Shown here in pieces: positions 14,928 to 21,815 of a stretch of DNA of 64,000 nucleotides. This stretch comes from Fimbriimonadaceae bacterium. Lineage in GTDB: Bacteria; Armatimonadota; Fimbriimonadia; Fimbriimonadales; Fimbriimonadaceae. Location: positions 2,397,564 through 2,461,563 of the forward strand of contig CP075366.1 in the NCBI GenBank assembly GCA_019454145.1. Direction: 5' to 3'. A program made the translations under genes and the position numbers. Below the pieces are notes generated by a model that searched no databases, was not told the origin of the DNA, and saw only the letters and a list, made by a program, of their open reading frames with translations. Numbering within the stretch: position 1 is the first letter of the stretch; every line of letters begins with the position of its first letter.

Positions 14928-16367
14928 ATGATTACCGCAATCTTGATGGCGTCGCTGATCAATCAGCCAAGTGAAGGAATTCGCACCCGAGCCAACGGGT
15001 TAGAAACGATAGAGTTTTCTGTACCAGAGGGGAAAATTAAAGTTTTGCTACCCGATGACCTCTGCGCGGGGGATGTTATTTCTGGCACTGTGACCACTGA
15101 ACCTAGTGGTTCTGGCAACCAAAAACAAAAGAACAATGATGTTCTTGAAGGCATGGTAATTAGTCTCGGCGGAAGTAATCCACAAACTGACAAAGATCAC
15201 GAAAAGTGGATTTTGTTGGAATCACTTTCGACAACCGTCGAAGTCGCATTGCGGGATAAAGGGGGCAAGCAGATTAGCAAAGCCACAATTCCACTGAACT
15301 ACGGAGCCGAAGGATCGAGCACCTCGCCGTTTGCAGTTGATCCCATTGTTCAATCTGGAAAACCGATCCAAATTTGCGGGCCATTTGATGGCAATGCAGG
15401 CAACTCAAAAGTTTCGCTTGGTTCGGGAAGTCCAACTGCGGTCATTGCGGAATCTCCACGGTCTTGCGTGGTCGCAACTACCCCTCAGCAAAACGGGCCG
15501 CTCAACGTGACTGTTAACGAAAACGGAAGGACGACCGAACACAAAACCCATGTTCTTAGCATTCAGCTTTCTGCCCCGAAAACTGACTTGCTACGCGGCG
15601 AGAGCACAGAACTTCGAGTCAGGGTGTCGGGATTAGAAGGATTAGGCGAGGACGCTTATCCGATTCCGATTGAGCTCACAAACCAAACGCCTTCCATTAT
15701 CCAGTTAGAAGGGGCGACGGGGAACTGCATCAGTCAGGGAATCACCCAGTCTCAAATTCAAAATGGACAGTTCAATTTCAACACCAAAGTAGTTGCGAAA
15801 ATGAATGGCACTTTCCAAATCAAGGGCGTGCTATTCAGAGTTTCACTTCACGATGCAAAAAATCTCATGTCAATGAGCCAATTCAAAGACTGGGTGGGTG
15901 GGCTGATTGCTATCTACGAGGCAAAGATCGCCGAGCTTAAAAAAGAACTTGCGAATGATCCGAAAAATCGCGGACTCCAACTTAATATTGAACGAAGAGA
16001 AAAGAATCTACAAACGTTAAAAGCATTTCGTTCTCCAAGTAGTCAGATGTTTGGTTCCGCAAAAACGGCAGTTGATCGAGCGTTGTCGGTTGATAATTTC
16101 TTCAGCGTTGCCGCAGACCTGATTTCAATTGCTGCAGATATGCTGGGATATTCTGGCTTGCCGATTCCTGGAGTAGGTGCGGTTCTAAAGGGTGCAAAGG
16201 CTTTCGCAAGCAAATTCCCGGATGTGATTAAGGCGATCGAGAAAGCGGAAGCACTTGTTGAAGCATATAACAAAATCACCGACGCTCAGGCAAAGATAGA
16301 TAAAGCGAAAGAGATAAAAGATGCCTTAGACAAAGTGAAAGAGGCCTTGGATAAAGCCGATCAATGA
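14928..16367 (+). CDS. Orphan protein with beta-rich N-terminal part and helical C-terminal tail
   Basis: I do not recognise this protein. Residues about 20-310 are beta-rich, with two segments resembling Ig/IPT-type folds (VDPIVQSGKPIQICGPFDG; LSAPKTDLLRGESTELRVRVSG). A helical stretch KIAELKKELANDPKNRG follows, then a Gly/Pro-containing hydrophobic part, then a charged coiled-coil tail of repeated AKIDKAKEIKDALDKVK units. Only a weak hydrophobic N-terminus (MITAILMASLI) hints at export. AAGGACAATCAGC precedes the ATG. The gene is flanked on both sides by copies of AATTGTTAAGA...CCTAGGACTA. Confidence 0.65.
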   Translation: MITAILMASLINQPSEGIRTRANGLETIEFSVPEGKIKVLLPDDLCAGDVISGTVTTEPSGSGNQKQKNNDVLEGMVISLGGSNPQTDKDHEKWILLESLSTTVEVALRDKGGKQISKATIPLNYGAEGSSTSPFAVDPIVQSGKPIQICGPFDGNAGNSKVSLGSGSPTAVIAESPRSCVVATTPQQNGPLNVTVNENGRTTEHKTHVLSIQLSAPKTDLLRGESTELRVRVSGLEGLGEDAYPIPIELTNQTPSIIQLEGATGNCISQGITQSQIQNGQFNFNTKVVAKMNGTFQIKGVLFRVSLHDAKNLMSMSQFKDWVGGLIAIYEAKIAELKKELANDPKNRGLQLNIERREKNLQTLKAFRSPSSQMFGSAKTAVDRALSVDNFFSVAADLISIAADMLGYSGLPIPGVGAVLKGAKAFASKFPDVIKAIEKAEALVEAYNKITDAQAKIDKAKEIKDALDKVKEALDKADQ

Positions 16368-19026: not shown

Positions 19027-20979
19027 ATGAATTCCGACTGTCCGAAATTCCGTTCAGTAGTAGAGGAACTTGATCGAGTTTCTCCCGGTGTTCCTTTACT
19101 CGCGCTAGGTCAAACCGTATTCTGGGATGAGCCCATGAAGTCGGGCATCTTCGCCGCTTTTCAAGAATGCGGCAAGCCTCGCCAGTATATTGCTGGCGTC
19201 CACGATACGGATTATTTTGCTAAGTTTAAAGGGAGCGGAAAAGGATTTGCCGCCTTACCGCATAACGACACCTCCACCAAAGATTTATGGAGCGCGGCGG
19301 GTGAATTCAGCCATCTCTTTGGAAGTGAAACGGTAGTTACCAAAGAAAAGCTTTCTTCGGCAGGGGCAAAAATTTCGATGCTGGAAGAGCATCGCCCCGG
19401 CTTCTTAGATGAAATCACGGAGGCGTACGGTTGGCGCGGGGTTGTTTCGCTGAGTGATGAATCGAAAATCACTGCGGAAAAAGAACTCAGCCGGATGTTG
19501 CCGCAGATTTTTGATACGTTCACCTGGGCGGTGGATGAAAGTCTGCGTTTGATTTCCGGTCGGCATCATTCTGAATCCGAAAAAATGCGCGATCACCTCG
19601 TTCAGTTGATCTGCGAAACCGCTGAATCGTCGGCAGATCCTAGTCTTGCCGCATATTACGAAGTTTTGATTCCTGAGTTCTACCAACTCGTTGCCGGGCG
19701 AAAGTTGGATATCGAGACAACTCGTACAACGCGGCTGTTGAAATTCAATCTAGAAACTTGTGGGCTAGATCGATTTAAGATCGTTGATTTGTTTTTGAAC
19801 CCGAAAACTAAGTCGATTGCTCGTGCCGCTTACGATGATGCGGTGTCTGGTTCAGAGATTTATACGCTCGACCGGTTTGGTAGCGGCACTTTGCCGTTCG
19901 ATTTGTATATTCCGGGTGTGGGGCGGGGAACGCTGAGGCTGGGAAATCGGGGCGGAGTTGTCATGACGGATAGTCCGATAGGGTTCTCGTTCAAAAAACC
20001 GATTGAATCTATTCAGCAACTTGCCGAAGTCATTGAGGCTAAGTTCGGGCCAGACTGCGTTCTGGTCGGTAAGGCAGTTTCGTTGATTTTAATGCTGAGT
20101 GCCGAATTCGTTTTCGTGTTCCATGAAGGAGCAAGTGGTTACGTGTGGCGATCAGCGCAAATGGCGGAATCGCTAGTCAAATCAGGAATTGAGGCAAAGT
20201 GGCATCCGATTTTGCGGACAAAGCTCAATCCTTGGGATGCGATGGACGACTGTTGCGCCTGGTTGCATCTACCTGAAACCATGCACCGCGCATTTGGTAC
20301 AGATGAACTTAGCGCTCCCACGTTTGCGTTGCGGTGGAGGGAAGTTGCAAAAGCCCAGCGGGCAAGGCTCACTGAGCTTGCAGAAGTCCGGCGTCCTCTC
20401 GCGCTGTTGGGATATCTGCAAAGAGAACTGGGTGGGCAATGGGAGTGCCTTGCTCATGAATACGGTTCGATTCAACAAGAATTTGCACAACTTGGCGAAC
20501 AGATTAAATCGGTTAAAGACCAGAAGCGGGCGGTGCTCGCCGAATTCAAATCAGCTAATCAAAGCCGCAACGAGTTGCAAGATGAAAAGGGTCGCCACTG
20601 GCGCGAGGCGATTTTTGAGAAATCTCCTAGCGATGAAGATTGGGCAAAACGAGAAGAGATCATCGCAAAAATTCAAAAATCAGATAGCTATAGGTACGGG
20701 CTTCACAACAAATACGAAGAACTGGAATCACAGCAGAATGAACTTGTGAACAGCCAAGTTGTTGCACGTTTGCGAGAACGGAGATTTAACATTGCGTTGG
20801 AAGCAGAACTTATGCGGGCCAAGCTGATCCGTGAAGCCGTGGTCAGTAGCGCCGGTTTGGAAAAGGCAGGTTATAGGCCAGCAGCGTGGTGGTTCCCGCT
20901 GGTGTGCCCAGATGGAACTTGGTTCCGCAGTACGATGATGAAAACCGAATGTCGTTTGGAGCCGCTCCTTAAGCCGTGA
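19027..20979 (+). CDS. Large orphan protein, 650 aa
   Basis: I do not recognise this family. The N-terminal half is mixed alpha/beta with no membrane segment or signal, and includes GSEIYTLDRFGSGTLPFDLY and GTLRLGNRGGVVMTDSPIG. The C-terminal third is a long charged helix rich in Glu, Gln and Lys (about residues 470-610), probably a coiled coil, ending in a Trp-rich segment YRPAAWWFPLVCPDGTWF. It is cytoplasmic by appearance. The stop overlaps the start of dapF (TGATG), so coupling to lysine/peptidoglycan precursor synthesis is possible but may be incidental. Confidence 0.7.
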   Translation: MNSDCPKFRSVVEELDRVSPGVPLLALGQTVFWDEPMKSGIFAAFQECGKPRQYIAGVHDTDYFAKFKGSGKGFAALPHNDTSTKDLWSAAGEFSHLFGSETVVTKEKLSSAGAKISMLEEHRPGFLDEITEAYGWRGVVSLSDESKITAEKELSRMLPQIFDTFTWAVDESLRLISGRHHSESEKMRDHLVQLICETAESSADPSLAAYYEVLIPEFYQLVAGRKLDIETTRTTRLLKFNLETCGLDRFKIVDLFLNPKTKSIARAAYDDAVSGSEIYTLDRFGSGTLPFDLYIPGVGRGTLRLGNRGGVVMTDSPIGFSFKKPIESIQQLAEVIEAKFGPDCVLVGKAVSLILMLSAEFVFVFHEGASGYVWRSAQMAESLVKSGIEAKWHPILRTKLNPWDAMDDCCAWLHLPETMHRAFGTDELSAPTFALRWREVAKAQRARLTELAEVRRPLALLGYLQRELGGQWECLAHEYGSIQQEFAQLGEQIKSVKDQKRAVLAEFKSANQSRNELQDEKGRHWREAIFEKSPSDEDWAKREEIIAKIQKSDSYRYGLHNKYEELESQQNELVNSQVVARLRERRFNIALEAELMRAKLIREAVVSSAGLEKAGYRPAAWWFPLVCPDGTWFRSTMMKTECRLEPLLKP

Positions 20980-21815
20980 TGGTAGAAATCCCGTTTTGCA
21001 AATTAGAAACGGTTGGCAACGACTTTGTTTTGCTGGATCAAACCGATGTTCCTCATGGTGACTGGCCGGAATTAGCCCGTATATTGTGCGAGCGACGGTT
21101 TTCGATTGGTTCAGACGGCTTGATGGTGATTTGGCGCGAGGGCGATGAAATCCACCTCAGGTTTTTTAATCCCGATGGCAGCGAAGATTTTTGTGGAAAC
21201 GGACTGCGTTGCGCCGCTTGGTACAGTTATCGGCAAGGCTGGACTGGTTTAGAATTTGCAATCCACCAACTTGGGCAAGTCATTCACATGTCAATTAATC
21301 CCGCTGGACGGGTCAAGGCACTGATGCCCGCGGCGGATTACAGCCCGCATGGAGTTCCACTTGTTGGAACCGAAGAGTTTATTGATCAAGAAATTCATGG
21401 TGTGGTTGGCACGGCGCTAACAACCGGTAGCGCTCACCTGATCACTTTTTGCGACGAACTCCCTGGCGACAGAGAATTTTTCCGTCTTGGCCCTCTGATC
21501 GAAAATGATCCGATCTTCCCTGAACGTATTAGTGTGATGTGGACAAAAGCGATCACTGACCGCAATTTGTACATGAGAATTTGGGAACGAGGCGTCGGCG
21601 AAACTCTTGGTTGTGGAACGGGAGCGACTGCCGCCGCGAGTGCCTGGTGCCGCAAACATAACATGACCGGCCGGATTGAGATTGGGAGTTTGGGCGGGGT
21701 GATTTCCGTGGATATCGAACGCTGGGATTTGCCTATTTCAGTCGAATGCGACCCGGAAGAACTCTTTTTTGGCAAGGCACTTGTGCCGCAGTCAGCTCTG
21801 GTAACGCCTATTTGA
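20979..21815 (+). CDS. dapF: Diaminopimelate epimerase
   Basis: DapF turns LL- into meso-diaminopimelate for lysine and peptidoglycan. Both catalytic cysteines sit in their motifs: NPDGSEDFCGNGLRCAAW (C72) and ETLGCGTGATAAA (C212). The length of 278 residues is usual. The start is taken at ATG 20979, overlapping the upstream stop as TGATG; a GTG one codon earlier is equivalent. No other dap gene is near. One base separates its stop from that of the convergent kinase gene. Confidence 0.95.
   Translation: MVEIPFCKLETVGNDFVLLDQTDVPHGDWPELARILCERRFSIGSDGLMVIWREGDEIHLRFFNPDGSEDFCGNGLRCAAWYSYRQGWTGLEFAIHQLGQVIHMSINPAGRVKALMPAADYSPHGVPLVGTEEFIDQEIHGVVGTALTTGSAHLITFCDELPGDREFFRLGPLIENDPIFPERISVMWTKAITDRNLYMRIWERGVGETLGCGTGATAAASAWCRKHNMTGRIEIGSLGGVISVDIERWDLPISVECDPEELFFGKALVPQSALVTPI

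Follow-up and report, generated by a model that had tools for sequence, protein, structure and literature searches.

What does a 650-residue protein do whose stop codon overlaps the start of a diaminopimelate epimerase (dapF) homologue? The open reading frame (ORF) that raises this question lies in a window of 64,000 nucleotides, which is the whole stretch of DNA analysed here. It belongs to a Fimbriimonadaceae bacterium whose genome is one 2.76 Mb contig, and the nearest named relative of this genome is a Fimbriimonadaceae assembly with 94% protein identity. An earlier note had proposed a new role in cell wall or lysine metabolism, on the grounds of the size of the protein and its tight coupling to dapF. 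The features of the locus are summarized in Table 1.

Table 1. Features of the ORF, of the coupled gene and of related loci (window positions; Hi-DapF, Haemophilus influenzae DapF; PBP, penicillin-binding protein).
Feature	Position	Strand	Remark
ORF, 650-residue protein	19027..20979	+	BshC-like predicted fold; stop codon TGA 20977-20979
Predicted catalytic domain, residues 8-435	19048..20331	+	Class I synthetase-like Rossmann fold with insertions
GQTVFWDEPMK, residues 28-38	19108..19140	+	Invariant in 36/36 (alignment A1); after the model's first strand
HDTDYF, residues 59-64	19201..19218	+	After the model's second strand
Helical/coiled-coil region, residues 430-616	20314..20874	+	From the predicted model
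C-terminal tail	20875..20976	+	Invariant RP (617-618), WW (621-622) and W632
DapF2, divergent second diaminopimelate epimerase homologue	20979..21815	+	Translationally coupled to the ORF
DapF2 catalytic Cys72 codon	21192..21194	+	
DapF2 Ser151	21429..21431	+	Place of Hi-DapF Asn157
DapF2 Ser185	21531..21533	+	Place of Hi-DapF Asn190
DapF2 catalytic Cys212 codon	21612..21614	+	
PBP loci of family f13			L068, L070, L071, L124, L125, L143, L148; L068 and L125 are one contig

The coding frame of the ORF (19027-20976) comprises 650 codons, and its start at ATG 19027 is backed by relatives. Its TGA shares one base with the ATG of the dapF-type gene (20979-20981), giving TGATG, so the frame and the overlapping stop described in the earlier note were borne out by the coordinates. 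Among 66 junctions in relatives, read with a crude script, a possible start lies at -8 to +20 bases from the stop in 44; an ATGA overlap is the commonest form (25), and the script found no start for 10. The long coiled coil that had been claimed appears in the model as long helices between residues 471 and 616 (471-529, 536-574 and 577-616). The Trp-rich segment stood as a short conserved motif, with W621, W622 and W632 invariant in 45 aligned members, but not as a matter of composition, as the last 50 residues hold 3 of the 15 tryptophans. Pfam and NCBIfam gave sub-threshold coiled-coil matches only, PADLOC gave none, and a PDB sequence search with the ORF family profile returned only chance coiled-coil and adaptor matches. 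The claim that the protein holds no known domain was thus right for sequence families, whereas its predicted fold resembles BshC and the class I aminoacyl-tRNA synthetases.

Across 45 diverse members, 40 columns are invariant, including GQT, WDEP, H59, DYF, GRG, GKA, RP, WW and W; within the HDTDYF motif, H59, D62, Y63 and F64 are invariant in 45/45 members (alignment A4). Judged from the alignment, this pattern is that of an enzyme. A structural or regulatory coiled-coil protein of the envelope, with its enzyme fold inactive, is most improbable. The long coiled coil would suit such a protein, as would the SpoIIM-like and PBP neighbours in family f13, but dozens of polar and aromatic residues of the catalytic domain are invariant and conservation in the family alignment is lowest in the coiled coil.

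The ORF gene was found in all 41 searched genomes of the order, window genome included, and in 198 of 291 Armatimonadota genomes, three of which are weak matches (G209, G211 and G266, E 1e-10 to 8e-8). Among the phylum genomes of ≥ 90% completeness and ≤ 5% contamination, 148 of 194 carry it. A dapF-type gene lies directly downstream in 66 of the 102 non-redundant loci whose downstream stretch is 300 bases or longer, a count made after dropping five loci without the C-terminus, one with 166 bases downstream and duplicates; the remaining 36 have no dapF downstream. Six further loci, of families f8, f10, f18, f36, f39 and f40, also have the ORF adjacent to DapF2. Given its presence in 41/41 genomes of the order and this frequency of a downstream dapF-type gene, the ORF is far beyond chance. 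The pairing, checked in relatives, is thus kept over a long evolutionary distance.

A scan of 84,980 species by short patterns, low in sensitivity, resulted in 50 loci. One of these, L050, is an ORF-DapF2 locus of the Fimbriimonadales type in a record labelled Methanoregulaceae archaeon, which is probably a mislabelled or mixed bin. Viral contigs gave 36 pattern matches for the ORF family, of which 0 were confirmed; BFVD held no match to the ORF model below E 0.03, and no ORF relatives were found on plasmids. In one locus (L067) the ORF is split over two frames, possibly by a sequencing error. Neither the ORF nor an M15 peptidase match is present in two genomes of the window's family (G153 and G154; 1.5 Mb, 97% complete), each of which has a single dapF. 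The window neighbours thyX, trpG, merR, pfkB, nitroreductase, ftsZ and purE shuffle between relatives; neighbour-protein clusters 0, 4, 7 and 8 were left out, as they look like out-of-frame readings. A 479-residue protein at window positions 14928-16367, with no Pfam match at E ≤ 1, occupies the same place in the 94% relative and has no tblastn match in the other loci listed. No description of the ORF family, nor of bacillithiol in Armatimonadota, was found among the open-access papers listed.

The coupled gene had been taken for the lysine and peptidoglycan precursor enzyme. This part of the proposal was not supported. An ordinary dapF (DapF1, G000:C1:141680-142456, 255 bits) lies elsewhere in the genome, immediately after a miaA-like frame; its paralogue, the coupled gene, shares 31.6% identity with it and has changed substrate-binding residues. 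Lysine or DAP synthesis as the simple reading was rejected because of this ordinary copy. DapF2 scores over the DapF cut-off TIGR00652 (164.1 vs 114.65 bits) and is therefore annotated as an ordinary diaminopimelate epimerase, so that any pathway it serves is hidden in annotation.

The DapF model matched 277 of 291 phylum genomes. At least two matches were present in 173 of 198 ORF-positive and 10 of 93 ORF-negative genomes, counts that are approximate because a gene split over contigs may be included (G245, G274). By family, a second dapF occurs in 27/29 ORF-positive and 3/16 other families (p 6.7e-7, Fisher, ignoring phylogeny); families are not independent, so this value and that for the dipeptidase below serve as a guide only. 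The 25 ORF-positive genomes with fewer than two matches include the well-assembled G024, G033, G096 and G155-157 and all eight ORF-positive genomes of f43, and the single copy of G033 is DapF2. Most but not all of the 10 ORF-negative genomes with at least two are incomplete (G228 is 95% complete). In one genome (G006:C1:738632-739401), DapF1 is in two pieces, possibly by a sequencing error.

In a tree of 111 dapF sequences, every ORF-adjacent copy fell on one side and 58 DapF1 sequences on the other (SH-aLRT 98). The split was kept when 27 second copies were added (SH-aLRT 99), and all 27 were placed on the DapF2 side; the ORF adjoins 6 of them and is absent from the stretch of about 10 kb fetched for each of the other 21, which means that the ORF and DapF2 are kept together in genomes even when unlinked. 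Since seven of the 27 duplicate sequences that the tree had included before, its 80 DapF2 rows represent 73 distinct genes.

In H. influenzae DapF, as set out in a portion of PMC8225329, Asn64, Asn157 and Asn190 contact the far carboxyl of DAP, Arg209 provides a salt bridge and Glu208 serves the far amino group. Placed by alignment to 1bwz, the equivalent of Asn157 is absent in 73/73 distinct DapF2 copies (position 151: Ser in 52, Thr in 21) and that of Asn190 in 70/73 (position 185: Ser in 68, Thr in 2, Asn in 3, all of f32), whereas DapF1 has Asn at these places in 54/58 and 58/58. Cys72, Cys212, Asn14, Asn64, Glu203 and Arg204 are kept in all 73. From these residues, we infer that DapF2 is probably an active epimerase, and that the far end of its substrate would be amino-acid-like but not quite that of DAP. 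Other DapF-like enzymes (HisR/CntK and PddB) act on other amino acids, according to excerpts of PMC8225329 and PMC11602996.

In 10 loci, from families f8, f10, f11, f19 and f32, DapF2 has an M15 (VanX-type) dipeptidase-like gene as its neighbour or less than 1 kb away; in four of these, the ORF is not in the stretch fetched. A profile search of the phylum gave 169 of 291 genomes, and 163 after six weak rows were dropped (G067, G099, G213, G214, G289 and G290). The dipeptidase is present in 159/198 ORF-positive genomes vs 4/93 ORF-negative ones, and those four are 64-73% complete. By family, the counts are 21/29 vs 0/16 (p 1.2e-6, Fisher, ignoring phylogeny). It is missing from 39 ORF-positive genomes, among them 13 of the 15 ORF-positive genomes of f2. 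The Zn and catalytic pattern (H-x6-D, E-x2-H) is present, with H131, D138, E194 and H197 invariant in 10/10, and the best PDB match is the D-Ala-D-Ala dipeptidase 1r44. The copy of the window genome (C1:651346-651984) is not linked to the ORF and, by our own reading, starts without an obvious signal peptide. In two loci (L131:9905-11308 and L150:4541-6019), a gene downstream of DapF2 encodes a methyltransferase domain with an M15 domain fused after it.

For the ORF itself, AlphaFold2 gave a model of the full length from 36 sequences (pLDDT 92.7, pTM 0.87) and of residues 8-435 from 45 sequences (pLDDT 91.6). Foldseek against the PDB was weak, with best E values of 0.022 (class I LysRS, full length) and 0.087 (domain), and BshC 4wbd was absent among its best 50 listed matches for either model. 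VIA-align, which re-aligns Foldseek's candidates, placed BshC 4wbd first for the full-length model (Z 12.9, rmsd 5.4 over 432 residues; LysRS tied at 12.4), where a Z near 13 is possible from helices alone by the tool's own warning. The catalytic-domain run is better evidence because most of the coiled coil is left out; BshC 4wbd was again first (Z 15.5, rmsd 3.9, 291 residues), followed by LysRS (1irx) with 12.3, GlnRS with 8.3 and MshC (3c8z) with 5.9. BshC had been guessed from sequence motifs before the fold was modelled, so this match was a prediction and not a pick.

The sequence profiles gave a different answer. A comparison of the ORF family with BshC by hhalign returned a probability of 0.2-0.3%, the BshC alignments being shallow (5 and 7 sequences), and a global profile comparison, with only 10 columns aligned, was also negative. 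PF10079 (BshC) had no ORF match at E ≤ 1, no relative over the cut-off (0/41), and was absent among the 25 families listed for 36 ORF members. No sequence homology to BshC was detected in five profile comparisons, all of them negative. The HxGH and KMSKS motifs of class I synthetases occur in 0/45 ORF members. Because of the negative profiles and the absent motifs, the predicted fold is called BshC-like and the protein is not filed as BshC; the likeness, as modelled, is one of fold only.

Another account of the ORF, a very improbable one, makes it a class I synthetase-like enzyme for loading a tRNA or carrier, while DapF2 and the dipeptidase would act for a metabolite linked to it. This account draws on class I LysRS (1irx) as the second structural match (Z 12.3-12.4) and is countered by the loss of both signature motifs in the whole family, by the lead of 3 Z units that BshC holds for the catalytic domain, and by the lack of any recognised tRNA-binding domain in the ORF.

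Canonical BshC is present in 6 of 291 phylum genomes, none of which has the ORF. BshA scored over the cut-off in 9 of 291: five of these genomes have the ORF and no canonical BshC (G043, G124, G126, G127 and G274), and four have canonical BshC and no ORF (G188, G189, G214 and G216). In the window genome, there is no canonical BshC, no BshA over the cut-off (the best match is a full-length GT4 with 132 bits vs 273.7), no BshB1 match and no PIG-L deacetylase match. For these reasons, bacillithiol is unlikely in the window genome, and its synthesis was set aside there as the main role. The ORF as a divergent BshC of Armatimonadota, making bacillithiol or a close relative, is improbable: the whole-length resemblance of the predicted fold, the complementarity of ORF and canonical BshC in the nine BshA genomes (5 vs 4) and a possibly diverged BshA in the window genome (the GT4) are offset by the 193 of 198 ORF-positive genomes without BshA over the cut-off and by the missing BshB1 and PIG-L genes, the latter without a match in 8/8 genomes of the window genus. 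Among the 41 relatives in the order, 24 have a PIG-L match. In Bacillus subtilis, the bshA/bshB1 operon includes dapB, as stated in part of PMC5372718. BshC activity had never been shown in vitro, according to an extract of a 2015 review (PMC4360819). In Bacillus velezensis and Paenibacillus cellulosilyticus (L169, L170), bshC lies just before, or one gene from, mraZ of the division/cell-wall cluster.

A transpeptidase PBP gene neighbours the ORF in seven loci of family f13 (two of them on one contig) and is directly downstream in six. A SpoIIM-like gene lies upstream in six of these PBP loci. In three other loci (L063, L065 and L127), a cytidylyltransferase-like gene, which we take to resemble HldE/RfaE, follows immediately after the ORF stop.

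The PBP gene bears on a reading in which racemase, ligase and VanX-type dipeptidase would make a variant stem-peptide end or cross-link, which we regard as unlikely. VanC-type operons change the stem end of peptidoglycan by a racemase, a ligase and a dipeptidase (vanT, vanC and vanXY), as described in a section of PMC9866002. The same three enzyme kinds are brought together here, though the enzymes are unrelated, and the intact Zn and catalytic residues of the M15 partner, its match to 1r44 and the f13 PBP loci fit the analogy. However, we saw nothing that links the set to mur, ddl or dcw genes, only family f13 has the PBP neighbourhood, the ligase fold is not ATP-grasp, and no description of the peptidoglycan of these bacteria was found in the open-access literature. 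ATP-grasp enzymes are the known ligases for D-amino-acid dipeptides. In a more specific, decidedly unlikely version, a pathway used by much of the phylum, a BshC-fold ligase would take their place: it would build a DAP-like amino acid, epimerised by DapF2, into a different kind of peptidoglycan end or cross-link or into a conjugate of the envelope, and the VanX-type dipeptidase would clear the ordinary dipeptide.

The reading that we prefer, at even chances, is broader: a BshC-fold ligase, an epimerase of altered specificity and a dipeptidase would belong to a pathway, so far undescribed, that forms amides or peptides and perhaps supplies the envelope. The ORF would be a cytosolic enzyme of BshC fold, in which the coiled coil comes after a Rossmann core like that of class I aminoacyl-tRNA synthetases, and it would most likely couple an amino acid to an amine through an amide or peptide bond. 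DapF2, as a cofactor-independent epimerase with its two-cysteine machinery kept and the far-end substrate pocket changed, would fix the configuration of an amino acid. The ORF enzyme would attach this epimerised amino acid or add something to it, and the VanX-type M15 dipeptidase of most lineages would remove a competing or spent dipeptide. The composition of the enzyme set suggests such a pathway, with an epimerised amino acid ending up in a product that has an amide or peptide linkage; the bond formation, substrates, step order, chemistry and envelope link we infer.

A role as an enzyme is thus supported by the size and conservation of the ORF, whereas coupling to an ordinary lysine/peptidoglycan precursor DapF is not supported. 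As for its place in metabolism, the lysine/DAP half fell with the ordinary dapF elsewhere in the genome; a role near the cell wall is possible, since a VanX-type dipeptidase co-occurs and a PBP gene adjoins the ORF in one family.

The ORF family has no name, and many members of a single phylum have it. As a second large family of BshC-like predicted fold, with no bacillithiol genes found in the window genome, it offers an independent route to the function of this fold. If the pathway does serve the envelope, Armatimonadota would have a cell-wall chemistry not seen elsewhere.

Compared with known systems, BshC (PF10079; 4wbd) and the ORF model both have a Rossmann core with insertions and a C-terminal coiled coil. 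In both, strand one is also followed by a G-Q pair and strand two by a D-x-D, by our own reading rather than a residue-level structural alignment. Unlike BshC, the ORF has a DapF homologue as its partner, and the bacillithiol pathway genes were not found in the window genome. Class I aminoacyl-tRNA synthetases (LysRS 1irx) and MshC (3c8z) share the catalytic fold with the ORF model, but their HxGH and KMSKS signatures do not extend to the ORF family (45/45 without). MshC is a class I synthetase relative that forms an amide without tRNA, and others have been predicted, as reported in a passage of PMC2922099. The Zn ligands and the catalytic Glu of VanX/DdpX (PF01427, 1r44) are also found in the M15 partner, whose best NCBIfam match is a D-alanyl-D-alanine dipeptidase model, whereas the window genome copy scores far below the equivalog cut-offs (68 vs 176 and 35 vs 320 bits). 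DapF2 resembles DapF (TIGR00652) in passing its cut-off with both cysteines, but two of the three far-carboxyl Asn are replaced by Ser/Thr. The O-ureidoserine racemase 7vdy is a DapF-like racemase that acts on a non-DAP amino acid.
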